Origin: Pseudomonadota bacterium
GTDB lineage: Bacteria > Chloroflexota > UBA6077 > JAJPHF01
NCBI GenBank assembly: GCA_021325365.1
Contig: JAJPHF010000023.1
Span: forward strand, 1-58,631
Reading direction: 5' to 3'
DNA: 58,631 bases
Position numbers and translations under genes: made by a program. The notes beneath the pieces were generated by a model. It was not told the origin of the DNA and made no database searches. It saw only the letters and a program-made list of their open reading frames with translations. This document shows, piece by piece, positions 1,788-51,240 of the stretch (positions are counted from its first letter, which is position 1; each line of letters opens with the position of its first letter).

Positions 1788-2005
1788 GGGACGCCGCCAG
1801 CCCGGGCGCAGAACGGCCGGCCTTCGAGAGCAGACGAGACGCACTGGCGACCGGCGCGGCTAGCCGGGGCGCTGGCTGCTCGGCCGGGTGGATGCGGTGG
1901 GGAGGGGCGAGGGGGCGGCGGTGACTCGGGCTGAAGGAGGCGGTGCTGGATGCTCCGATCGCTCATGTGGGAGAAGATCGGGGGACGGGGCGGAGGAGTG
2001 ATGCA

Positions 2006-3148
2006 ATGAGGTGGGGTGGATGGCTGGGCGTAGGAATCGCGCTCTGGCTCGCGGCGTGCACGCCGGCGGGGCCGAGCCAAGCGGGCGCTGCCGCGCGGCC
2101 CACGCCGGCTGCCGCGGAGCAGGCGCCGGGCGGGCCAACCTCTGGCGCGGCCACCGCGGCGGCCGGCGGGGCAGCGGCCAGCGCGTCCACGGCGCCGCTG
2201 TCCCCGCCCGTGGCGCTCAAGGTTGGCTCTACGCTAACGCTCGGCGATAGCCCGTTGTTCGTGGCGATGGCGAAGGGCTACTTCCAGGCGGAAGGGCTGG
2301 ATGTCGAGCTCGTGCCGTTCGATTCGGGCGCCAATATGATTGCACCGCTGGCGGCGGGGCAGCTTGACGCGGGCGTAGGCGCCACGTCGGCGGGGCTGTT
2401 CAATGCGATGGCCCGCGACGTGGGCCTGGTCATCGTCTCGGGTGCGGGGCAGTTCACGGCCGGCCACGGCTCGTCGGTGGTGATGGCCCGCAAAGACCTC
2501 GTGGACAGCGGCCAGATCCGCGACTACGCCGACCTGCGCGGCCGCACGATTGCCACCTCGGGCGAGGGCAACGTGACGACGATTGCCATCGGGAAGGCGC
2601 TGGAGCGGGGCGGGCTGACGCGCGACGATGCGAACGTGGTCAGCATGGGCTTCCCCGACATGCTGAGCGCCTTTGCCGGTGGCTCGCTCGACGTGGGTTT
2701 CGAGGCCGAGCCCTTCGTCACGAACGCGGTGGAGCGCAACCTGGCGACGCGCTGGAAGCCGGTCGACGAGATCCTGCCTGACCATATGGTGACGGTCTGG
2801 ATGTACTCACAGAAGCTGATCCAGACCCAGCCGGAGGCGGCGCGACGGCTCATGGTGGCGCTGGTGCGGGGCTCGCGGGACTATATGGACGCGATCGACA
2901 AGGGGCGCGGCCGCGCCGAGGTGGTCGCTGCCATCACCGAGCACTCTCGCGTGAAGGACCCGGCGCTCTACGATCGCATGGTGTTCATCGCCGTGCCGAC
3001 GTCGGGTGAGGTCGACGTGAAAAGCCTCGCGGACGACATCGCCTGGTACCAGGCGAACGGCTACCTGGAGGCCGCGCCCGATCTGAGCCGCTCGGTGGAC
3101 GGCCGCTTCGCCGCCTACGCGCGCGAGCGGCTCGGGCCGTACCAGTAG
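2006..3148 (+). CDS. ABC transporter substrate-binding lipoprotein, NMT1/SsuA-like
   Basis: A 380-residue periplasmic-type binding protein. The start ATG 2006 is preceded by GGAGGA and gives a lipoprotein signal (WLGVGIALWLAAC, lipid-attached Cys18), followed by an Ala/Pro-rich linker to about residue 75. The mature domain begins LKVGSTLTLGDSPLFVAMAK and has the NMT1/THI5-like pattern (YFQAEGLDVELVPF, then a GQLDAGVGATS block). Such proteins capture small organic ligands (pyrimidine precursors, sulfonates, nitrate, aromatics) for an ABC importer, but no permease or ATPase gene is adjacent. It is closely similar in layout to the protein at 50113-51240. A strong hairpin follows the stop. The ligand cannot be inferred. 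Confidence 0.88.
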   Translation: MRWGGWLGVGIALWLAACTPAGPSQAGAAARPTPAAAEQAPGGPTSGAATAAAGGAAASASTAPLSPPVALKVGSTLTLGDSPLFVAMAKGYFQAEGLDVELVPFDSGANMIAPLAAGQLDAGVGATSAGLFNAMARDVGLVIVSGAGQFTAGHGSSVVMARKDLVDSGQIRDYADLRGRTIATSGEGNVTTIAIGKALERGGLTRDDANVVSMGFPDMLSAFAGGSLDVGFEAEPFVTNAVERNLATRWKPVDEILPDHMVTVWMYSQKLIQTQPEAARRLMVALVRGSRDYMDAIDKGRGRAEVVAAITEHSRVKDPALYDRMVFIAVPTSGEVDVKSLADDIAWYQANGYLEAAPDLSRSVDGRFAAYARERLGPYQ

Positions 3149-12854: not shown

Positions 12855-12886
12855 TCCGGCGACACTGCTCCCGCCCGGAGGCTCCC

Positions 12887-15415
12887 TTGGCGTCGCCTGC
12901 ACCGCCCCCCGGCTCGCATGGCCGGGCCGCTGGCCGTACGCCAGCGGTCGCGGGAGCCACGGGTCCGGCGCGGCCCAGGCCGGAGGAGGCGGCGCCGGGA
13001 GCGGGCGGGGCGGCCCCACCGCCGACGCCGCCGGCGGCGCTCGCCACGCTGGAGGGCAGCGTCGAGCGCATCACCTTCGCGAACGAGGAGAGCGGCTTCG
13101 CCGTGCTGCGCTTGCAGCCGACGGACAAGAGCTACCTCGTCACGGTCGTCGGCAAGCTGGCGGCGGTCCACATCGGCGAGCAGGTGCGGCTGCACGGCCG
13201 TTGGACGACGCACCCCCAGCACGGCCGCCAGTTCGAGGCCCAGGACTTCGCCGTCGTGCTGCCGACGACCGTGGAGGGCATCCGCAAGTACCTCGGCTCG
13301 GGGCTGATCCGCGGCGTGGGCAAGGTCACCGCCGAGCGACTGGTGCGCCACTTCGGCGCCGACACGCTGGAGATCATCGAGAACGCGCCGGGGCGGCTGG
13401 AGGAGGCGGAGGGCATTGGCCCGACGCGCGCCCGCGCTATCCGCGCCGCCTGGCAGGAGCAGAAGGCCATCAAGGAGGTGATGGTCTTCCTGGCGTCGCA
13501 CGACGTCTCGACCACGCTCGGGCTGAACATCTACCGCCAGTACGGCGACGAGTCGGTGCAGGTGATCCGCGAGACGCCGTACAAGCTGGCCCGCGACGTG
13601 CGCGGCATCGGCTTCAAGACGGCCGACAAGATCGCTGCGAACCTGGGGGTGGCCCCCGACTCGCTCGACCGCGCGATGGCGGCGCTCGCCCACGTGCTCG
13701 CCGAGGCGACCGACGAGGGCCACGTCTACCTGCCCGAGCGCGAGCTGCTCCAGCGCGGCGAGGCGATGCTGGCGCAGCCCGAGGAGCGCCTGCGCGCCGC
13801 GCTGACGGCGCTGGCCGACGAGGGGGCCATCGAGATCGAGGCGAGGATTCAACCTAACCCCCCAACCCCCTTCCCTTCGAAGGAAGGGGGAGCAGGCGAG
13901 AGCGGCGAGGCGTCTCCCCCCTTCCCTCAAAGGGAGGGGGGGATGGGGGGGGTAGGTAACCCTGCCGTCTACCTCCGGCCGCTGGCGCGGGCGGAGCAGG
14001 GGCTGGCAGGCCACGTGCGGCGGCTGCTGTACGCGGGCCAGGACCGCCTGGCGCTGTGGCAGAGCGTGGACTTCGAGCGGGCTTTCGCGTGGCTGGCGCA
14101 GACGACCGGCATGGCGCTCGCGCCCGCGCAGGCCGACGCGGTGCGCACCGCGCTGACCAGCCGCGTGACGGTGCTCACGGGCGGCCCGGGCACCGGCAAG
14201 ACGACGACCGTGCGGGCGCTGCTGCGGCTGCTCCAGGCGAAGCGGGGCACGGCCCTGCTGGCGTCGCCGACCGGCAAGGCGGCCAAGCGCCTGGCCGAGG
14301 CGACGGGGGTGCCGGCGAAGACGCTGCACCGCCTGCTGGGCGTGGGCTTCGGCGGGCGGATCGCCCACGACGCCGAGCACCCGCTCGACGCCGACCTGAT
14401 CGTGGTCGACGAGGCGTCGATGCTCGACGAGCTGCTGGCGAACATGCTGGTGAAGGCGGTGCCGTCGGGCGCGCACCTGCTGTTCGTGGGCGACGTGGAC
14501 CAGCTGCCGTCGGTCGGGCCGGGCAACGTGCTGGCGGACCTGATCGCCTCTGAGCAGGTGGCGGTGGTGCGGCTGGAGGTGATCTTCCGCCAGGCGGCCG
14601 AGAGTGGCATCGTCGTGAACGCTCACCGCATCCTGCACGGCGAGCGGCCGGAGCTGCGGCAGTACCCGGACTTCCGCTTCGTGCCCGCCGACGACCCCGA
14701 CCAGGCGGTGGATGCGATCCGCGACCTGGTGGCGCGCAGGCTGCCGCGCCAACGAGTGGGACCGAGGCCGCCGCTCCAGGCGCGCGACGTGCAGGTGCTG
14801 ACGCCGATGCGGGTCGGGCGGCTGGGCAGCGCCAACCTGAACGAGGTGCTGCAGGCCGCGGTCAACCCGCCGGCGCCCGCGAAGGCCGAGCGCGCGTTCG
14901 GCGGGCGGGTCTTCCGGGTCGGCGACCGCGTGATCTGCGTGAAGAACGACTACAAGCGCGAGACGTTCAACGGCGACGGCGGGGTGGTGCAAGCCGTTGA
15001 CCAGGGCGCGCAGCAGGTCGAAGTGCTGCTCGACGACGGCCGCGCGGTAAGCTACGACTTCGCCGACCTGGACGAGCTGTTGCACGCCTACGCGCTGTCG
15101 GTGCATCGTGCGCAGGGCTCGGAGTACGAGGCGGTGGTGCTGGCGCTGCACACACAGCACTACGTGATGTTGCAGCGCAACCTGCTGTACACCGCCGTGA
15201 GCCGCGCGAAGCGGCTGGTGGTGATCGTGGGGAGTCCGCGCGCGCTGGCGGTAGCGATCAAGAACGATCGCCGGGCCGTGCGCTACAGCGGCCTGGCGGC
15301 CCGCCTGCGCGGGCTCGGCGCGGCGGCGCCACGCTCCGCCACACGGCCCCCCGACGAGGCCGACGTCACGCTCATCGACGACCTGGACACGCTGCGCGCG
15401 TACTTCGCGTCCTGA
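12887..15415 (+). CDS. recD2: ATP-dependent RecD2-family DNA helicase
   Basis: An 842-residue 5'-3' superfamily 1B helicase. The N-terminal OB-like region (LEGSVERITFANEESGFAVL) is followed by helix-hairpin-helix repeats (LIRGVGKVTAERLVRHFG; VRGIGFKTADKIAANLG), typical of RecD2. Helicase motifs: Walker A GGPGTGKTTT near residue 434, VVDEASMLD, FVGDVDQLPSVGPG, IFRQA, and SVHRAQGSEY and YTAVSRAKRLV at the C-terminus. TTG 12887 is chosen because GGAGG sits 5 nt upstream and a -10 box precedes it. A ~106-bp palindromic repeat at 13852-13957 adds about 35 residues in frame. RecD2 acts in DNA repair independently of RecBC. Confidence 0.92.
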   Translation: MASPAPPPGSHGRAAGRTPAVAGATGPARPRPEEAAPGAGGAAPPPTPPAALATLEGSVERITFANEESGFAVLRLQPTDKSYLVTVVGKLAAVHIGEQVRLHGRWTTHPQHGRQFEAQDFAVVLPTTVEGIRKYLGSGLIRGVGKVTAERLVRHFGADTLEIIENAPGRLEEAEGIGPTRARAIRAAWQEQKAIKEVMVFLASHDVSTTLGLNIYRQYGDESVQVIRETPYKLARDVRGIGFKTADKIAANLGVAPDSLDRAMAALAHVLAEATDEGHVYLPERELLQRGEAMLAQPEERLRAALTALADEGAIEIEARIQPNPPTPFPSKEGGAGESGEASPPFPQREGGMGGVGNPAVYLRPLARAEQGLAGHVRRLLYAGQDRLALWQSVDFERAFAWLAQTTGMALAPAQADAVRTALTSRVTVLTGGPGTGKTTTVRALLRLLQAKRGTALLASPTGKAAKRLAEATGVPAKTLHRLLGVGFGGRIAHDAEHPLDADLIVVDEASMLDELLANMLVKAVPSGAHLLFVGDVDQLPSVGPGNVLADLIASEQVAVVRLEVIFRQAAESGIVVNAHRILHGERPELRQYPDFRFVPADDPDQAVDAIRDLVARRLPRQRVGPRPPLQARDVQVLTPMRVGRLGSANLNEVLQAAVNPPAPAKAERAFGGRVFRVGDRVICVKNDYKRETFNGDGGVVQAVDQGAQQVEVLLDDGRAVSYDFADLDELLHAYALSVHRAQGSEYEAVVLALHTQHYVMLQRNLLYTAVSRAKRLVVIVGSPRALAVAIKNDRRAVRYSGLAARLRGLGAAAPRSATRPPDEADVTLIDDLDTLRAYFAS
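13852..13957 (+). repeat. Family E palindromic element inserted in recD2
   Basis: A ~106-bp unit beginning ACCTAACCCCCC and ending GGGGTAGGT, with two internal stem-loops (CTTCCCTTCGAAGGAAG is one). It is translated as a foreign-looking NPPTPFPSKEGG and PPFPQREGGMGG peptide. The same architecture occurs between genes at 26201-26311. Confidence 0.82.
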
Positions 15416-30661: not shown

Positions 30662-31717
30662 ATGAATGGCGCTCGCCTGATCGTCGCGCTGCTCGGCGGC
30701 TGCCTGATGGTGGCGTGCGCCGGGCCGGCGGGCGCCCCTGCCGTTCCATCCAGCAGCGCTCCAGCGGTGGGCGGGAGCGCGATCCAGGCGACGAGCGCGC
30801 CGGCCGCGCCGCCCTCGCCCGTCGCGCTGCGCGCGATCAGCATCGCCCACCCGACCGCGAATCCGCAGCTCGTGCCGTTCCGGCTGGCGATCACGGAGGG
30901 CTTCTTCCGGGAGGAAGGGCTGGATGCCCAGATGATCCAGATTGGCTCCAGCGCCTTTGCGCCCGCCATGCTGAACGACGAGATCGACTACTCCACGCTG
31001 TTCGGCGCGACCGTGCGGCTGGCGGCGGCTGGCGCGCCGGTGAAGGCGATCATGGTGCTCAACGACAAGCCGCTCTTCTACCTGATCGCGCAGCCGGGCA
31101 TCGCCAGCGTGCCCGATCTCCGCGGGCAGGAGGTGGGCGTGGGGCCGCGCGGCGGTACGCTCGATCACCTGGCGCGCGACATCTTCACTTACTACGGCCT
31201 CGATCCCCAGACCGATCTGGTCTCCCGGTCGTTTCAGCAGATCGACGGCACGCTGCCGGCGCTGCTCGCCGGCCAGATTCAGGCGGCGGTCGTGCCGCCG
31301 CCGCTCAACCTGCAGGCCGAGGCGCAGGGAATGAAGATGCTGGTGGACGCGGCCGATCTGTTCCGCGCGGCCTCAGGTGGCGTGACGACCACGGAGCGCA
31401 AGCTGCGCGAGCGGCCGGACGAGGTGCGGGGCGTGTTGCGGGCGACGCTGCGCGGGATGGAGTTCATGCGGAGTCACCGCGCGCCCGCGCTCGCCGAGAT
31501 GGTCAGCTGGGCGGGCATCGACGCGGCGCTGGCCGACGGCGCCTACGACGGCGTCGTCAAGTCTTTCACGTCCGACGGACTGGCGACCGATGACGAGATC
31601 CAGCCGGAGATCGACAGCGCGAAAGAGCAGATGGGGACGCCTGACGCGGTCATCCCGGTGTCGCAGGTTGTCGACTTCACGCTGCTGCGCTCGGTCCTCG
31701 CCGAGCCGCGCCGCTAA
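30662..31717 (+). CDS. ABC transporter substrate-binding lipoprotein, NMT1/SsuA-like
   Basis: A 351-residue protein with a lipoprotein signal (LIVALLGGCLMVAC, lipid-attached Cys19), an Ala/Pro linker and an NMT1-like domain: VPFRLAITEGFFREEGLDAQ, then FAPAMLNDEIDYSTLFGATV, then VPDLRGQEVGVGPRGGTLDH. C-terminal ITPVSQV-like segment VIPVSQVVDFTLL. No permease or ATPase is linked. It is convergent with another binding protein gene only 7 bp away. The ligand is unknown. Confidence 0.88.
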   Translation: MNGARLIVALLGGCLMVACAGPAGAPAVPSSSAPAVGGSAIQATSAPAAPPSPVALRAISIAHPTANPQLVPFRLAITEGFFREEGLDAQMIQIGSSAFAPAMLNDEIDYSTLFGATVRLAAAGAPVKAIMVLNDKPLFYLIAQPGIASVPDLRGQEVGVGPRGGTLDHLARDIFTYYGLDPQTDLVSRSFQQIDGTLPALLAGQIQAAVVPPPLNLQAEAQGMKMLVDAADLFRAASGGVTTTERKLRERPDEVRGVLRATLRGMEFMRSHRAPALAEMVSWAGIDAALADGAYDGVVKSFTSDGLATDDEIQPEIDSAKEQMGTPDAVIPVSQVVDFTLLRSVLAEPRR

Positions 31718-31724
31718 GCCGCCG

Positions 31725-32873
31725 TTACCCCGCGTACTTGCCGAGCTGGGCGAGGGCGTAGTCCACGAACTGGTTGTCGACGACCTGGTCCATCGGGACG
31801 AGCCGCTCGATGGCGCCCCACTCCAGGAGCTGCTGCTGGTCGGCCTCGATGCCCGACAGGTTCAGGTAACCGTCCGGGTTCATGTGCTCCCAGTTCACTC
31901 GCGTCACCACGTCTACCGCCAGGTTCGTGGACTGCGCGAGGATCTGCGCGATCTCGTCGGGCGGCTGGCCGCGCCGCTGCCAGTCGACGTAGTCGCGCAC
32001 GCCGCGCAGGTTGGCGATCATCCAGCGGCGGGCCACGTCGGGCCGCCCCTGGTGAAACTGCTCGCCGAAGACGTAGGCCGCCGTCTGCTGGCCGTCGTAG
32101 TAGTCGCTGAGGTTTTGCCACATGACTAGCGGCGCGCGCTGCAGCGACAGCGTGAAGAACGGCTCGACGAACACGCCGCCGTCGACCTGGCGATTGGCCA
32201 TGAGGTCGGGCATGTCGCGGTAAGGGATGATCTTCCAATCCACGTCGTCCATGGTGAGGCCGACCGTGGCCAGCATCTTGACGAGCAGGAAGCCCTGGCC
32301 GCCCGCCTTGGGATCGGTCGTCACCGCGATGGCGCGGCCCTTGATCTCAGCGAGCGGGAGCGTGCCGCTCGCCGGCACGAGGTCGGCGCGCACGCCGAGC
32401 ACGCTCGTGGCGGTGCCTTTCTGCTGGTGGCCCTTGTCGACCACCATGCGCTGCGCGATGCCACGGTTCACGGCGTTGAAGAACGCGGACTGCATGCTCG
32501 TGGTGCCGACGTCGAGCTGCCCGGCGGCGAGCAGGGGCGTCATCTGGGCGCCGGTCGAGTACGGCTCGTCTTGGAGGTCGATGTTCACGTCCTTGAAGTA
32601 GCCGCGCTCGCGGGCGATCGTCGTGCTGAACGCCGTGCCCACGTTGCCCTGGTGGACGACGTCGGGCTCGCGCGCCACGGTGGGCGCCGCCGGTGCCGTG
32701 CTCGCGGCGGGCGGGGACGCGCTGGGGGCGCTCGCCACGCCCCCCGCCGGTTTGGCCGGCGCGGCCGACGGGGTCGCGCACGCCGCGGCAGCCCCGGCCG
32801 CCGCCACCGCGGCAGCGCGCAGGAGCGCCCGGCGGCTGAGTGGTGGCGGCGCCGCGCGCCGGCCTGCCTTCAT
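31725..32873 (-). CDS. ABC transporter substrate-binding lipoprotein with Tat-like signal
   Basis: A 382-residue protein. The signal has SRRALLRAAAVAAAGAAAAC: a twin-arginine pair followed by a hydrophobic stretch and a lipobox Cys32, which suggests Tat export. The binding domain starts VVHQGNVGTAFSTTIARERG and continues YFKDVNIDLQDEPYSTGAQM and GQLDVGTTSMQSAFFNAVNR, an NMT1-like pattern. AGGAGG lies 6 nt before ATG 32873. It heads no transporter operon but lies 10 bp downstream of the alpha/beta hydrolase gene on the same strand, so it probably belongs to that catabolic unit. Confidence 0.87.
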   Translation of the reverse strand: MKAGRRAAPPPLSRRALLRAAAVAAAGAAAACATPSAAPAKPAGGVASAPSASPPAASTAPAAPTVAREPDVVHQGNVGTAFSTTIARERGYFKDVNIDLQDEPYSTGAQMTPLLAAGQLDVGTTSMQSAFFNAVNRGIAQRMVVDKGHQQKGTATSVLGVRADLVPASGTLPLAEIKGRAIAVTTDPKAGGQGFLLVKMLATVGLTMDDVDWKIIPYRDMPDLMANRQVDGGVFVEPFFTLSLQRAPLVMWQNLSDYYDGQQTAAYVFGEQFHQGRPDVARRWMIANLRGVRDYVDWQRRGQPPDEIAQILAQSTNLAVDVVTRVNWEHMNPDGYLNLSGIEADQQQLLEWGAIERLVPMDQVVDNQFVDYALAQLGKYAG

Positions 32874-32883
32874 CAGTATCCTC

Positions 32884-33717
32884 CTACCCCGCGTGCCCCA
32901 GCACCCAGTCCAGTATCCAGGCGTTCGTCTCGGCCGGCTGCTCCCAGAAGAAGCCGTGCGTCTGGTCGGGGAGCACTTTGTAGACGGCGTTCGGGATGCG
33001 CGCGGCGAGCGCCTCGGCCTGCTGCACGTGGTTGCTGCCGCCCGTGTCGGCGCTGCCCACCACGACGAGCGTCGGCACGGCCACGTCGCCCAGGCGGTGC
33101 GTCGCCTCCCAGGCCTGGCGGGCCGCCACCAGCCGCAGGTACTCCGGTGGCCGCGCCGCGCTGCGGGCGACGACCTCGTAGAGCGCCTGCACACGGTCCG
33201 GGTGCTGCGCGCGGAACTCCGGGGTGAAATACGTCGAGGCCTCCACGATCTCGTGGCGCTGGTGGCCGTCGAAGCCGCGCTCGAGCAGGCTCATCACCAG
33301 GCCGTGCGACAGGCCCACGACGCACTGCTCGCCGGCGCGCGTGGCGACGCCCGAGCCGGTGGCGGCGCAGATGAGGCGCTTCACGCGGCCGGGATGGTCG
33401 AGCGCCATGGCCAGCGCGATGCGCCCGCCCATCGAGTGGCCGAGCACGTGCGCCGCGGGCACGCCCAGGTGGTCGAGCAGCGCGATCACGTCCGCCGCCA
33501 TCTGCTCGATGGTGTAGACGCGATCGGGGCGGCTGGAGCGGCCGCAGCCGCGCGGGTCGAGGATGATCAGGTTCAGGCGCTCGCTGAGCGGCCCCACCTG
33601 CTCCAGGTGCCAGACGTCCGAGGCGAACGCCGTCGAGGGGAGCAGCACCAGCGGCTCGCCCGCGCCGTGCGACTCGTAATAGAGGTCGATGCCCGTGGGC
33701 AGCGCTACGGTCGGCAT
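32884..33717 (-). CDS. Alpha/beta hydrolase
   Basis: A 277-residue hydrolase of the BioH/3-oxoadipate enol-lactonase type. Strand VLLPSTAFASDVWHLEQVGP, LDPRGCGRSS, the nucleophile elbow GHSMGG (Ser at about residue 96), the acid Asp in VVVGSADTGG and the catalytic His in DQTHGFFWEQ are all present. Neighbours on the same strand (class II aldolase and flavin reductase upstream, binding lipoprotein downstream) suggest a catabolic operon for a small organic substrate. The exact ester, lactone or C-C bond cleaved is not predictable. Confidence 0.9.
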   Translation of the reverse strand: MPTVALPTGIDLYYESHGAGEPLVLLPSTAFASDVWHLEQVGPLSERLNLIILDPRGCGRSSRPDRVYTIEQMAADVIALLDHLGVPAAHVLGHSMGGRIALAMALDHPGRVKRLICAATGSGVATRAGEQCVVGLSHGLVMSLLERGFDGHQRHEIVEASTYFTPEFRAQHPDRVQALYEVVARSAARPPEYLRLVAARQAWEATHRLGDVAVPTLVVVGSADTGGSNHVQQAEALAARIPNAVYKVLPDQTHGFFWEQPAETNAWILDWVLGHAG

Positions 33718-44103: not shown

Positions 44104-44207
44104 GCGGGGCTCGCGCGTCCTGGTCGTGCGTTGATCAACTCATCACAGCTACCCAGCCTATAGCCGTCGCTGGCTGCTGATGGTGCGTGTGCCGCGGAGT
44201 AAGTTTC

Positions 44208-45092
44208 GTGGCCAACGACTCCATCCACGTGCTGTTGGTCGAAGATTCCCCGGTCAATGCGGACCTCATGAAGGAGGTGCTGGCCGAGCCGCAGCGGAGC
44301 GGGCCGGCGCAGCCGGCGTTCCGCGTGGTACACGTCGGACGGCTGGCGAACGCCTTAGTCCGCCTAGATCAGGGCGACATCGACGTGGTGCTCCTCGATC
44401 TGTCGCTGCCCGACAGCCAGGGATTCGATACGTTCGCCAAGACGCACGCCCGTGCCCCGCGCGTGCCGATCGTCGTGCTCACCGCGTGGGACGACGCGGA
44501 GCTGGCCGCGCGAGCCGTGCGCGAAGGCGCACAAGACTACCTGGTCAAGGGCGAGATGCCGATTGAGCTAGTGACGCGGTCGCTCCGCTACGCCATTGAA
44601 CGGAAGCGGGCGGAGGCGGAGCTGCTCCGTGAGCAGGCGGCTCGCGCGGCGGCCGAGGCGGCCCTGGATCACGCGCGGCAAGCGGAGAAGCAGCGCCGCG
44701 AGCACCAGCGCCGGGAGCTGCGCTCGCTGGAACGGCTGTCGGCGCCCGGCGCCACAGCGATCACCGCCCAGGTGTTCGGCGTCGAGCCGCTGAGCCGCGC
44801 CCTCCCGGAGACGTTCCGAGAGCTTACGGCACGGTACGCGCAGCTCCTCGATCTGGCGTTGGAGCAGCGAACGCACCGGGTGGACCACCGGCTGTCGGAT
44901 GCTCTCCGCGCGCTGGCGGACGAGCTGGGCTTTCTCCATGCCGGCCCGCGCGACGTGATCGAGCTGCACACCGCCGCGCTCAAGAGCCGCCTGGCCGAGG
45001 CGCAAGCGCCGAAGGCGCAGGCGTACATCGACGAGGGGCGGATGACGGTGCTAGAGCTAATGGGGCACCTCGTGGCATACTACCGCAGTTGA
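44208..45092 (+). CDS. Receiver protein with KaiA-like C-terminal domain
   Basis: A 294-residue protein with GTG 44208 preceded by GGAG. Residues 5-118 form a complete REC domain: Asp13, phosphoacceptor Asp64, Thr92 and Lys114. Residues 130-180 are a charged coiled coil. Residues about 199-294 are helical and end DVIELHTAALKSRL, then GRMTVLELMGHLVAYYRS. This resembles the cyanobacterial KaiA C-terminal domain, whose last helices read VVEIHMELIDEF and then RLTLIDVIAHLCEMYRRS. In KaiA this domain binds the KaiC tail and promotes phosphorylation. The stop overlaps the kaiB start (TTGA). Alignment was made by eye from memory, so the homology needs testing. Confidence 0.72.
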   Translation: MANDSIHVLLVEDSPVNADLMKEVLAEPQRSGPAQPAFRVVHVGRLANALVRLDQGDIDVVLLDLSLPDSQGFDTFAKTHARAPRVPIVVLTAWDDAELAARAVREGAQDYLVKGEMPIELVTRSLRYAIERKRAEAELLREQAARAAAEAALDHARQAEKQRREHQRRELRSLERLSAPGATAITAQVFGVEPLSRALPETFRELTARYAQLLDLALEQRTHRVDHRLSDALRALADELGFLHAGPRDVIELHTAALKSRLAEAQAPKAQAYIDEGRMTVLELMGHLVAYYRS

Positions 45093-45439
45093 CCGCAGCC
45101 TCGCCGGAAGCGCTGGCCGAGAGAGCCGTGCCGTTGCCGAAGCATCTGTTCAAGCTGTACGTCACCGGGCAGACGCCACGCTCCGAGCGTGCGATCGCGA
45201 ACCTGCGACGGATCTGCCGGGACGCGCTGGGCAGCGACTACGAGCTTGTGATCATCGACGTGCTGGAGCACCCTCACCTGGCCGAACAAGATCGGGTGAT
45301 GGTGACGCCCACCCTCGTGAAGCAGGTGCCCCCACCCCCCCGCCGGGTGCTCGGCGACCTCTCGGACACGGAGCGCGTCCTGGCGGAGCTGCACGTTGAG
45401 CCAGCAGCCGCGCCAGGGCCCGCGAGAGAGGAACCATGA
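45089..45439 (+). CDS. kaiB: Clock protein KaiB
   Basis: A 116-residue thioredoxin-like protein with the KaiB consensus throughout: FKLYVTGQTPRSERAIANLR, ELVIIDVLEHPHLAEQDRVM, VTPTLVKQVPPPPRRVLGDL and SD. The conserved GDLSD segment contains the residues involved in KaiB fold switching. The TTG start at 45089 overlaps the previous stop; GTG 45128 would give a shorter form. KaiB binds the KaiC CI ring. The stop overlaps kaiC ATG (ATGA). A generic thioredoxin is excluded by the absence of a CxxC and the match to KaiB-specific motifs. Confidence 0.93.
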   Translation: MTAASPEALAERAVPLPKHLFKLYVTGQTPRSERAIANLRRICRDALGSDYELVIIDVLEHPHLAEQDRVMVTPTLVKQVPPPPRRVLGDLSDTERVLAELHVEPAAAPGPAREEP

Positions 45440-46971
45440 GCGACCGCGCTAACGACAACGGTATCGTCCGGCTGCCGATCGGCATCCCGGGCTTTGACCT
45501 CATTGCCCAGGGCGGCCTGCCGCGCGGCCGGACCACCTTGGTTGCCGGCACGGCCGGCAGCGCGAAGACGGTCTTCGCCGCCCAGTTCCTGGCCGAGGGG
45601 ATCGCCAGCGACGACGAGCACGGCGTCTTCGTGACCTTCGAAGAGTCGCCCGGGGACATCCGCGGCAACATGCTCGGCTTCAACTGGGACATCACGCAGT
45701 GGGAAGCCGAGGGCAAGTGGGCCTTCGTGGATGCGTCGCCCCAACCCGAGGACGAGGCCGTCGTCACGGGCGAGTACGATCTGGGGGCGCTGATGGCGCG
45801 CCTGGAGTACGCGGTACGAACGGTGAGCGCGCGGCGCGTGGTCTTGGACTCGCTGGGCGCCGTCTTCGCGCGGCTCGGCGAGAGCCCGATCGTGCGGCGC
45901 GAGCTGTTCCGTATCGTCTCGGCGCTCAAGAAGCTCGGGGTGACGGCCGTGATGACGGCCGAGCGCACCCACGAGTACGGCGAGATCTCCCGCCATACCG
46001 TCGAGGAGTTCGTCGCCGACAACGTGGTCATCCTGCGCAACGTACTCGAGGACGAGAAACGTCGCCGGACGATCGAGATCCTAAAGTTCCGCGGGACGGC
46101 CCATCAGAAAGGCGAGTTCCCGTTCACCATCCTGCCTGGGGTCGGGATCACGATCTTGCCGCTCTCCGCGATGGAGCTGACGCAACGATCCTCCGACATC
46201 CGGATCACCTCCGGCAGCCCCGAACTGGACGAGATGTGCGGCGGCGGCTTCTTCCGCGACTCGATCATTCTCGTCTCGGGGGCGACGGGCACTGGGAAGA
46301 CGCTGATGGTGACCCAGTTCATGGCTGGCGGCTTCGCCGCGGACGAGCGCTGCTTGCTCTTCGCCTTCGAGGAGAGCCGCGAGCAGCTTTTCCGGAACGG
46401 CCAGGGGTGGGGCATCGACTTCCAGGGGATGGAGCACGACGACAAGCTGCGGGTGGTCTGCGAGTACCCGGAGGTGGCCGGCCTCGAAGATCACCTGGTC
46501 CGGATGAAGGCGATCATCGAGGAGTTCCGGCCCAACCGCGTGGCGGTCGATAGCCTGTCGGCCCTCGAGCGCGTGTCCACCATCAAGGGATTTCGGGAGT
46601 TTGTCATCGGGTTAACGTCCTTCATGAAGGACCAGGAGATGGCCGGCCTGTTCACGTCGACGACGCCGACCCTGATGGGCGGGGAGTCGGTGACGGAAGC
46701 CCACATCTCGTCGATCACGGACTCTATCATCCTGCTACGGTACGTGGAGATGTTTGGCGAGATGCGCCGCGGCGTGACCGTGCTCAAGATGCGCGGCTCG
46801 AAGCACGACAAGGACATCCGCGAGTTCATGATCGACGGCAGCGGCATGCACATTGCCAAACCGTTCCGCAACGTCGTCGGGATCTTGTCCGGGCGGCCCA
46901 CGCACGTGGGCCTGGGCGAGGTGGACCGAATCAGCGACCTGTTCGCCCAGGGAACCAGCCCGGAGGGATAG
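45436..46971 (+). CDS. kaiC: Clock ATPase KaiC
   Basis: A 511-residue tandem RecA-type ATPase. CI: Walker A GTAGSAKT (Lys44) and catalytic Glu pair in VTFEESP. CII: Walker A GATGTGKT (Lys288), FAFEESREQL and RVAVDSLSALE. The autophosphorylation region reads SVTEAHISSITDS, placing Thr420, Ser425 and Ser426 where cyanobacterial KaiC has Thr426, Ser431 and Thr432. The Ser replacing the second site is a conservative change. The C-terminus is shorter than in KaiC of Synechococcus. KaiC acts as the oscillator core and its phosphorylation cycle sets period. The CI P-loop has Ser-Ala where Gly is usual. Confidence 0.96.
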   Translation: MSDRANDNGIVRLPIGIPGFDLIAQGGLPRGRTTLVAGTAGSAKTVFAAQFLAEGIASDDEHGVFVTFEESPGDIRGNMLGFNWDITQWEAEGKWAFVDASPQPEDEAVVTGEYDLGALMARLEYAVRTVSARRVVLDSLGAVFARLGESPIVRRELFRIVSALKKLGVTAVMTAERTHEYGEISRHTVEEFVADNVVILRNVLEDEKRRRTIEILKFRGTAHQKGEFPFTILPGVGITILPLSAMELTQRSSDIRITSGSPELDEMCGGGFFRDSIILVSGATGTGKTLMVTQFMAGGFAADERCLLFAFEESREQLFRNGQGWGIDFQGMEHDDKLRVVCEYPEVAGLEDHLVRMKAIIEEFRPNRVAVDSLSALERVSTIKGFREFVIGLTSFMKDQEMAGLFTSTTPTLMGGESVTEAHISSITDSIILLRYVEMFGEMRRGVTVLKMRGSKHDKDIREFMIDGSGMHIAKPFRNVVGILSGRPTHVGLGEVDRISDLFAQGTSPEG

Positions 46972-46974
46972 CCC

Positions 46975-48090
46975 GTGTCGGCCAGGGCCGGAAGACGGCA
47001 GCAGCCTCCGCGGCGACGGGCGGACGCCGGCCTCCGCACCATCTTGGACGCGAGCGCCGACGGCGTCGTGGTGGTGGACCAGGACGGCATCGTCTGCTTT
47101 GCGAACCCGGCGGCGGAACAGCTGTTCTCGCGCCGCGCGGAGGAGCTGATCGGCCACGTGTTTGGCTTCCCGCTGGTTGCCGACGCGACGGCGGAACTCG
47201 ACGTGCTCCGCCCGTCGGGGGCCACCTGTGTGGTGGAGATGCGCGTGGTGGCGATCGAGTGGGCCGGCCGGCCCGCGCACCTGGCGACGCTCCGCGACGT
47301 CACCGAGCGGAAGCAGGCCGAAGCCGAACGCGCCGCGCTCATTCGGGAGCAGGCGGCGCGGATGGAAGCGGAGGCGGCTCTGCAGGCGCGCGACGAGTTT
47401 CTGGCGACCACCGCGCACGAGCTGAAGACCCCGCTGACCCGGCTCCACCTCTGCGTCCAGCGCGCGCAGCGCCGCCTCGCGCGGGAGGGGCAACGGCCGC
47501 CGGCCTACGTCCAGACGGCGCTCGAACAGATCGCGCTGGAGTCGGAGCACTTGGCGCGGCTGGTGAGCCAGATGCTGGCGCTGCCGGAAATCGAGAGCCG
47601 GAGCCTCGTACTCGAGCGCGCGCCGACGGACCTCCGTCAGCTCGTGGAGGGGGTGGTAGCCCAGGCGCGTGCTACCGTGGGCGAGGGGCGGCTGCTCGTA
47701 CACTCGCCCCCTGCCCCGGTGGAGGTCTCGATCGATCCCCAAGCGGTCGAGCAGATCGTCACCAGCGCCGTGGGCAACGCGCTGCGCGCCAGCCCGCCGG
47801 GCTCCCCGATCGAGGTCGAGTTGACGACGCATCCCGCGTCGCTCTCGTCCGAGCACAGCCGGGGTAGCGCCCAGCTCGCCGTACGGGACCACGGGATGGC
47901 GGTGCCGCCCGAAGACCGCCCCCGCCTGTTCGGGCACTCCTTCGACGTTCACTCCAACGCCTACGTTTCCGGTCTGGGCCTGTGGCTGTACGTCAGCCGG
48001 CAGCTCGCCACGGCGCACGGCGGCTGCATCGACATCGAATTCCCGGAGGATGGCGGCACGCGGGTAGTCCTCAGCCTCCCGCTCGCTTGA
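46975..48090 (+). CDS. PAS-domain sensor histidine kinase (possible clock output)
   Basis: A 371-residue cytoplasmic kinase. PAS domain at about residues 19-115 (ILDASADGVVVVDQDGIVCF), short coiled coil, HisKA with phospho-His in TTAHELKTPL (about residue 144) and HATPase with G1 DHGMAV and G2 GLGLWLYVS; the N-box is VGNALRAS. It lacks membrane segments and a KaiB-like domain, so it is not a SasA homologue by domain order. The GTG start follows the kaiC stop by 3 bp with CGGAGGGA upstream. Position suggests it reads or feeds the Kai complex. Confidence 0.88.
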   Translation: MSARAGRRQQPPRRRADAGLRTILDASADGVVVVDQDGIVCFANPAAEQLFSRRAEELIGHVFGFPLVADATAELDVLRPSGATCVVEMRVVAIEWAGRPAHLATLRDVTERKQAEAERAALIREQAARMEAEAALQARDEFLATTAHELKTPLTRLHLCVQRAQRRLAREGQRPPAYVQTALEQIALESEHLARLVSQMLALPEIESRSLVLERAPTDLRQLVEGVVAQARATVGEGRLLVHSPPAPVEVSIDPQAVEQIVTSAVGNALRASPPGSPIEVELTTHPASLSSEHSRGSAQLAVRDHGMAVPPEDRPRLFGHSFDVHSNAYVSGLGLWLYVSRQLATAHGGCIDIEFPEDGGTRVVLSLPLA

Positions 48091-48241
48091 GCCGGCTCGC
48101 GCAGTGCCGCGCCAGGCGAGCGCACGGCGCGGGGGGCGGCCGGCACGTTTTCTGCGCAGGGGGGCAGCGTAGCGGCGACTGGCGACGCCGGCGCCGCGGA
48201 GCAGGTGCTCCAATCCGATATGGATCCGGGGGCGGGTGGAG

Positions 48242-48733
48242 ATGAGCGAAGACGGCCGAACTGCAGCGCAGGACACGGCCATGTCCGAGGACCGGGGACG
48301 CGGTCGCATCTTGATCGTGGATGACGACCCGCTTATCCGCGACTGCCTCGCCGCCGCGCTGAGCGATGAGGGTTATGAGACGATCACGGCGCCCCATGGG
48401 GCGGCCGCCCTGGAACTGCTCAGCCACTATCCACGATTCCACCGGCCGCCCGCCGTGATCCTGCTCGACATGCGCATGCCGGTCATGGACGGTTGGGCCT
48501 TCGCGGAAGCGTACCGGCGCCTGCCGGAGCCACACGCGCCGATCGTCGTGCTCACGGCCGCGCAGGACGGCGCCAAGGGGGCGATAGAAATCGGAGCGTA
48601 CGCCGCGGTCGCGAAGCCGTTCGATCTAGATGGCCTCCTCGCCGTGATCGACGAATGCCTCCAGCGCGATGACGGGACCGGCGGTCTTCTGCCCACGTCG
48701 GCCGACTACCTTCCCTGCCACGCGAGGCGCTGA
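48242..48733 (+). CDS. Single-domain response regulator
   Basis: A 163-residue protein that is one REC domain: ILIVDDDPLIRDCLAAAL, phosphoacceptor Asp in VILLDMRMPVMDG, Thr in VVLTAAQD and Lys in VAKPFDLD. There is no output domain, so it would act by protein interaction. ATG 48242 is a compromise start; GTG 48236 and ATG 48281 (MSEDRG) are alternatives. It is 151 bp after the kinase gene and may form a phosphorelay with it. It is not a DNA-binding RpaA homologue. Confidence 0.85.
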   Translation: MSEDGRTAAQDTAMSEDRGRGRILIVDDDPLIRDCLAAALSDEGYETITAPHGAAALELLSHYPRFHRPPAVILLDMRMPVMDGWAFAEAYRRLPEPHAPIVVLTAAQDGAKGAIEIGAYAAVAKPFDLDGLLAVIDECLQRDDGTGGLLPTSADYLPCHARR

Positions 48734-50112: not shown

Positions 50113-51240
50113 ATGGGTCGATACCGCGTGCCGCTGCGACTCGTCGGGCTGGTCGTGCTGCTCGCGATGGGTGGGGCGTGCGCGCCCGCGGCGCCGAGCG
50201 CTCCAGCGCCCGCGGCCCCCGCGCAGCCGGCCGCGAGCGCGCCCACAGCGGCGCCTGCCGCCGCGGCGGCCACGGCGGTCCCCACCGCCGCGCCGCAGCC
50301 GGCGACCGTGCGGGTGGGCATCCTGAACTCGGTCGGCGACGCGGCCTTCAGCATCGGTATCGAGAAAGGCTTCTACGCCGAGCAGGGCATCACCGTCGAG
50401 ACGGTGCCGTTCGACTCGGCGGTGCGGATGATCGCGCCGCTCGGGGCCGGCCAGCTCGAAGTCGGCCAGGGCGTGATCGGGGCGAGCGCGCTCAACGCCG
50501 TGGCCCGCGGCGTGGACGTGCGGGGCATCGCCGGGGCGTCGGGCAGCCCGCCGGGCCACGGCAACAACGCCTTCATTCTCCGCAAGGACCTGGCCGACCA
50601 GGTACACGGGCCGGCCGACTTGCGCGGACGGAAGGTCGGCATCGCCTCGACGGGCAACGGGGTGGAGATCGAGCTGGTGGACCTGCTGCAGCGCGGCGGG
50701 CTCACGCTCGCCGACGTGGAGCTGGTGCAGCTCAACTTCGGCGAGCAGGTGATCGCGCTGAGCAACGGGGGGATTGACCTCGCGCTCATCTCGGAGCCGT
50801 CGGCCACGCTCGCCCTGGACCGCGGCGTCGGGCAGCTGTGGATGCGCTCGGACGAGCTGATCCCGAACCACCTGACCTCGTTCATCTGGGCCGGGCCGCA
50901 CTTCGTGGCCCAGACCGACGTGGCGCAGCGCTTCATGGTGGCGGCGCTGAAGGGCGTGCGGCTGTACAACGACGCCTTCTTCAAGAACGACGCGGCGACG
51001 CGCGAGGAGCTGATCGACATCTTCACCAAGTACACGCCGGTGAAGGACCGTGACCTGTACAACCGGATGGTGTTCCAGGGATTCGATCCCGACGGGCGGA
51101 TCAACCGCGAGAGCGTCGAGCGCGACATGGCGTATTACGTGGCCACCGGCCAGATTCCGGGGCCGGTCGACCTGGACCGCCTGATCGACATGCGGTTCGC
51201 CGACTACGCGGTCAGCGTGCTGGGGCCTTATCCACGGTAG
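50113..51240 (+). CDS. ABC transporter substrate-binding lipoprotein, NMT1/SsuA-like
   Basis: A 375-residue protein with a lipoprotein signal (LVGLVVLLAMGGAC, lipid-attached Cys23), a long Ala/Pro/Thr linker and an NMT1-like domain: VGILNSVGDAAFSIGIEKGF, GITVETVPFDSAVRMIAPLG, QLEVGQGVIGASALNAVARG. It is closely similar to the protein at 2006-3148 (both have VKDxxLYxRMVF and a GPY ending), so the two are paralogues. No transporter partners are present. It is divergent from the hydratase-aldolase and upstream of the molybdenum hydroxylase, so an aromatic or carboxylated ligand is possible. Confidence 0.88.
   Translation: MGRYRVPLRLVGLVVLLAMGGACAPAAPSAPAPAAPAQPAASAPTAAPAAAAATAVPTAAPQPATVRVGILNSVGDAAFSIGIEKGFYAEQGITVETVPFDSAVRMIAPLGAGQLEVGQGVIGASALNAVARGVDVRGIAGASGSPPGHGNNAFILRKDLADQVHGPADLRGRKVGIASTGNGVEIELVDLLQRGGLTLADVELVQLNFGEQVIALSNGGIDLALISEPSATLALDRGVGQLWMRSDELIPNHLTSFIWAGPHFVAQTDVAQRFMVAALKGVRLYNDAFFKNDAATREELIDIFTKYTPVKDRDLYNRMVFQGFDPDGRINRESVERDMAYYVATGQIPGPVDLDRLIDMRFADYAVSVLGPYPR

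Follow-up and report, generated by a model that had tools for sequence, protein, structure and literature searches.

A probable KaiA3-type KaiC activator at the head of a kaiB-kaiC run in a likely Chloroflexota bacterium

Introduction

Koebler et al. (2024) gave the name KaiA3 to proteins in which a NarL-type receiver is joined to a KaiA-like domain, and whose gene lies upstream of kaiB3 (PMC11372060). The Synechocystis representative was described to oligomerise, to bind KaiC3 and to promote its phosphorylation, and KaiA3, KaiB3 and KaiC3 together produced a damped rhythm in vitro (PMC11372060). The same paper gives orthologues in five non-cyanobacterial genera, including Roseiflexus and Chloroflexus, has Rhodospirillum among the published hosts and cites Geron et al. 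for KaiA orthologues outside cyanobacteria (PMC11372060); the R. rubrum orthologue is Rru_A3293, and the genes adjoining it were named kaiB2 and kaiC2 (PMC10931921). Dvornyk and Mei reported KaiA with a kaiABC operon for two non-cyanobacterial assemblies that they name, found varied N-termini among cyanobacterial KaiA, and held KaiA to be as old as the cyanobacteria (PMC8113500). In this work we analyse a gene at 44208..45092, on the forward strand of a stretch of 58,631 nucleotides (contig JAJPHF010000023.1 of assembly GCA_021325365.1, hereafter the window). We consider it quite probable that it encodes a KaiA3-type KaiC activator with a KaiA-like mechanism, which we propose below, and that it leads a kaiA3-kaiB-kaiC run that comes with a histidine kinase of its own; the host is probably a member of the Chloroflexota.

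Like the Synechocystis KaiA3 (Sll0485) system as published, the window has a receiver joined to a KaiA-like four-helix domain, the gene directly upstream of kaiB with kaiC as the usual companion, and a KaiC with adjacent phosphosites (PMC11372060). It differs in the host, in the genes for a PAS histidine kinase and a receiver that continue the run, and in the second phosphosite, which is Ser in the window KaiC and Thr424 in Synechocystis KaiC3 (PMC11372060). The likeness to Sll0485 is one of architecture and published description, and not of directly aligned sequences. With S. elongatus KaiA (PF07688) the window protein shares, by prediction, the C-terminal fold, and also the positions of EIH and HLxxxYR; however, it carries a true phosphorylatable receiver (D64) where KaiA has a pseudo-receiver devoid of a phospho-acceptor, and it had no match to the Pfam KaiA model at E <= 1. 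The window protein belongs to the KaiA3 kind, which is already in print, and a receiver-KaiA fusion outside Cyanobacteria is nothing new. A first-pass annotation of this DNA had proposed that KaiA-type regulators also exist outside cyanobacteria; profile, predicted fold and gene order support this, but such regulators had already been published (PMC11372060). What has been described less is how large the family is and how varied its sensors are. The wide spread of the domain and its varied N-termini were not found in the open-access literature searched, and we do not firmly claim them as unpublished.

Results

The open reading frame (ORF) runs from a GTG start to a TGA at 45090-45092 and encodes 294 amino acids; an alternative in-frame GTG upstream, at 44187, would give a product of 301. 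What the first-pass annotation had read from the letters is indeed there: VIELHTAALKSRL and RMTVLELMGHLVAYYRS in the C-terminal part, the receiver residues D64 and K114, and kaiB and kaiC directly after the gene. Its receiver, described as complete and phosphorylatable, occupies residues 6-123 (44223..44576, forward strand as for all features below) with strands and helices in the model, and residues 8-123 match Response_reg (PF00072, E 8.7e-19), the sole Pfam family above cut-off in this protein. The long helical stretch noted earlier is predicted by AlphaFold2 as one helix of 59 residues (120-178; 44565..44741) that continues from the receiver and links it to the C-terminal domain, a predicted KaiA-type four-helix bundle (residues 195-294; 44790..45089). 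The full-length model has a mean predicted local distance difference test (pLDDT) score of 92 and a predicted template modelling score of 0.66, and the four-helix domain reaches a pLDDT of 95.8; residues 181-190 average just 59, so the relative placing of the two domains is unsure.

Taken as a single sequence, the C-terminal 96 residues matched none of the KaiA and RsbU entries of Pfam, NCBIfam and the Protein Data Bank (PDB), the listed matches being weak and unrelated. The KaiA likeness was seen at the level of the family. A protein search with residues 190-294 returned 138 proteins at E <= 1e-3, the window protein included, and when GTDB representatives were scanned for one conserved motif of the domain we obtained 61 loci, of which 60 had the domain (L061, where it is absent, was left out of all counts); because a single motif was used, 60 is a lower bound. 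Pfam was run on 57 members, that is, the window and 56 loci, with four truncated or fragmentary ones (L043, L049, L059 and L060) excluded here and kept among the 60. PF07688 matched one of these 57 (E 8.3e-4). When the family profile was aligned with 21 KaiA C-termini, hhalign gave Prob 62.9 and P 7.1e-5 over 91 columns, whereas none of 60 column-shuffled controls exceeded Prob 2.4 or fell below P 0.019. In this alignment the EIH and HLxxxYR positions fall in register with KaiA, with the spacing that the first-pass annotation had proposed. Our evidence is this profile-profile test with its shuffles; the alignment to a single KaiA (Prob 22, P 1e-3) was set aside, and the PDB matches to KaiA obtained by the family profile only were left unused by themselves because they are weak (1q6a, E 0.12) and rank below a match to SHERP (0.019). 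Structure prediction, another check suggested at the outset, agrees: KaiA C-domains rank first for the predicted four-helix domain, with a root-mean-square deviation of 2.2 A over 94 residues between the model and the KaiA structure 1r8j, and 14-17% identity with the aligned KaiA structures. By profile and predicted fold, the assignment of the domain to the KaiA type is supported, and so is its greater nearness to KaiA than to RsbU.

The domain is also tied genetically to kaiB and kaiC, both here and in the majority of the relatives that we looked at. Among the 60 loci, kaiC starts within 1500 bp downstream on the same strand in 55, kaiB lies within 600 bp downstream on the same strand in 51, and 50 have both. 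The ten others comprise three at contig ends (L009, L049 and L059), five planctomycete loci with kaiC only, one with kaiB and kaiC on the opposite strand (L058) and one with neither gene (L018). In all 60 the domain lies at the C-terminus or close to it, and what precedes it varies: among the 57 members we found receivers in 38, PAS in 12 (overlap between the two uncounted), MASE3 in 2, and in one member each GAF, protoglobin, MEDS, and a four-helix sensor and HAMP. The loci fall under about 13 phylum-level labels, taken from record titles or taxonomy: Chloroflexota, Cyanobacteriota, Pseudomonadota, Thermodesulfobacteriota, Nitrospirota, Nitrospinota, Planctomycetota, Acidobacteriota, Spirochaetota, Elusimicrobiota, Tectimicrobiota, Zixibacteria and one Helarchaeota assembly. 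As the majority come from metagenome assemblies, individual loci may carry a wrong bin or label; L003, for instance, has Proteobacteria in its title, yet is placed in the Roseiflexus phylum set. By the motif scan, the family of the window protein also takes in four Roseiflexus, two Rhodospirillaceae and four cyanobacterial loci, and it includes cyanobacterial members of the same architecture.

Within the Roseiflexus phylum the domain was present in 24 of 301 genomes; of 30 loci taken from these, 20 had both kaiB and kaiC at no more than 1.5 kb and 10 did not (L139-L144, L157, L160, L162 and L163, L143 being at a contig edge). Three genomes (G354, G320 and G541) carry a family member free of kaiBC along with a kaiBC-linked copy. 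Members without kaiBC nearby may act on a KaiC encoded elsewhere. A search of 400 Roseiflexus-phylum genomes with the whole protein matched 393, many through the receiver alone, and this tally was not used. In the cyanobacterial phylum (23 of 244 genomes) kaiB was within 1.5 kb at 19 of 23 loci and kaiC at 6, and L105-L108 had neither. The planctomycete loci L015, L024, L025, L028 and L029 have the KaiA-type gene and immediately after it kaiC, with 180-271 bp from the ORF end to the kaiC match; there was no kaiB match within these five loci, nor any PF07689 match in the whole genome behind L015. In other words, they are KaiA-KaiC pairs without KaiB. The Helarchaeota assembly (L031, 7473-12232) has two kaiB-kaiC pairs after a gene of the receiver-KaiA type; since the domain was found in one of 227 genomes of that phylum, this is a case of transfer or misbinning. 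In a magnetotactic Nitrospirota assembly (L030, 5565-10253) the KaiA-type gene is flanked by a kaiBC pair on each side, and the upstream KaiC has just 53% identity to the window KaiC.

Back in the window, the kaiA3-type gene, kaiB and kaiC form one overlapping run (44208-46971). The kaiB gene (45089..45439; PF07689, E 1.2e-26) overlaps the first gene by 4 bases if its TTG start is used, with an alternative in-frame GTG at 45128; its product is above the Pfam cut-off and under those of NCBIfam for circadian KaiB (88.6 vs 110 bits). After a further 4-base overlap with the end of kaiB comes kaiC (45436..46971), which encodes 511 amino acids with two ATPase domains (PF06745 in two stretches, E 1.1e-115) and passes the cut-offs of both Pfam and NCBIfam circ_KaiC. 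Aligned with other KaiCs, the protein has the adjacent phosphosites HIS-S, which we take to be the equivalents of S. elongatus 431/432, and a short C-terminal tail, without the long one of the KaiC2 type. The same holds across the family: all 53 aligned KaiCs (one from the window, the others from 52 loci) have Ser at the first phosphosite, 52 have T or S at the second, and the 50 readable tails extend 30-42 residues beyond the reference point with no long extension (L001 being off frame, and L024 and L045 cut short). With these phosphosites and tails, the partner expected of KaiA is in place. A single quick-method tree of 98 rows, built on the N-terminal 330 residues and without named KaiC3 or KaiC2 references, placed the window KaiC on the side of the KaiA3-linked cyanobacterial KaiCs (Shimodaira-Hasegawa-like approximate likelihood ratio test 99) and canonical KaiC apart (100); 3 of the 68 rows of the non-cyanobacterial group (L055, L057 and L058) fell outside it.

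Three bases past kaiC begins a PAS-HisKA-HATPase histidine kinase (46975..48090; domains from Pfam), our first candidate as partner of the receiver, and further on lies a stand-alone receiver (48236..48733; PF00072, E 2.9e-22), a candidate alternative target or output of this kinase. Family-wide, the evidence for kinase linkage is mixed. Of 35 receiver-type loci, 32 have the receiver Asp. In a separate count, 14 of 36 receiver-type loci had a kinase match no more than 3 kb upstream, against 0 of 19 of the other types; downstream of kaiC the proportions were 3 of 31 and 8 of 13. These counts treat related genomes separately, and the receiver class is approximate (36 of the 55 loci with kaiC downstream by phmmer, 35 of 60 in another count, 38 of 57 by Pfam). 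With 3 of 31, we rejected the idea that a kinase generally follows kaiC where the KaiA-type protein has a receiver. Elsewhere in the window, four ORFs (1943-3148, 30662-31717, 31725-33194 and 50113-51240) look by eye like one family of NMT1/SsuA-type substrate-binding lipoproteins, which suggests an enlarged transporter set.

Sequence affinities make Chloroflexota the likely host. A RecD2-like helicase (12875-15412) has 77% identity over 460 residues (358-817) to one genome of the Roseiflexus phylum, where 10 of 121 genomes had matches at E <= 1e-180, the best near full length being 54%; at E <= 1e-120 there were matches in 1 of 98 cyanobacterial-phylum genomes (47%) and 1 of 5 Tectomicrobia-phylum genomes (53%, residues 361-826). 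The KaiC nearest to that of the window is also from Roseiflexus (75% over 321 columns). Both agree with the non-cyanobacterial host assumed in the first-pass annotation.

Discussion

The mechanism that we propose is as follows. The KaiA-type domain would dimerise, hold the neighbouring KaiC by its C-terminal tail and draw out the A-loops, and KaiC autophosphorylation would rise as a result; KaiB would then bind phosphorylated KaiC and sequester the activator, after which KaiC would dephosphorylate. A histidine kinase, probably the downstream PAS kinase, would tune the strength or timing of activation through the receiver and the long helix. Architecture, predicted fold, family, gene order and KaiC type come from this analysis, and KaiC activation and its antagonism by KaiB are carried over from what has been published for KaiA3 of Synechocystis and KaiA of S. 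elongatus. Phosphorylation may gate the activation, as the first-pass annotation had proposed; the anatomy of the protein makes this a fair suggestion, and the 59-residue helix is, in the model, a plausible route from the receiver to the activator.

A serious alternative, to which we give a little less than even chances, is that the KaiA-type protein serves a KaiBC system for stress or redox regulation, or an hourglass timer, and no oscillator, the receiver being merely an on/off switch for KaiC. Many of the labelled hosts of the family loci are presumably not phototrophs, which we count for this alternative together with the five planctomycete loci that lack kaiB, one of whose genomes lacks it altogether. 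Stress and hourglass roles have been described for KaiB/KaiC systems outside cyanobacteria, but the Synechocystis relative does oscillate, albeit in a damped manner (PMC11372060), and the window keeps the full three-gene set, with both phosphosites in its KaiC and the tail of that protein short. Such a timer can be held together with the KaiC activator that we favour, which claims no rhythm.

The other two alternatives concern the domain itself. It is very improbable, in our opinion, that a response regulator has here nothing more than a generic bundle for dimerisation, with a convergent likeness to KaiA. Short four-helix domains do fit many folds, the best Foldseek E was 0.089, and AGPRDV, a hallmark of the family, is missing from KaiA; however, the profile match to KaiA is far above shuffles, the KaiA Pfam model itself matches a family member, and the 55 loci with kaiC downstream were all found through the domain alone. 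Just as improbable is membership in the RsbU N-terminal family (PF08673), in which case the domain would recruit a partner of the stress response, for example a kinase like RsbT, and the adjacency to kaiBC would be incidental: the N-terminus of B. subtilis RsbU, which dimerises and binds a kinase partner, is in the same helical fold class (PMC11372060), and RsbU has a segment, IHRKVLK, that resembles EIH...LK of the window family, but there was no PF08673 match at E <= 1, profile similarity was no higher than with shuffles, the fold match was poorer and the window protein has no PP2C phosphatase domain; an RsbU-type identity was set aside.

We lean, by a modest margin, towards seeing the KaiA-type domain as a widespread output module that in about a dozen phyla couples many sensors (receivers, PAS, GAF, globin and membrane sensors) to KaiC rather than a cyanobacterial invention, with canonical KaiA and its pseudo-receiver as one derived branch; direct fusion of a sensor to the KaiC activator would then be the common plan of KaiBC clocks or timers. 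With a full kaiABC-type set from a probable non-cyanobacterium, a KaiABC oscillator in other bacteria becomes directly testable, the receiver and its adjacent kinase provide a defined input that could be switched in vitro, and the breadth of the KaiA-type family bears on the age of KaiA.
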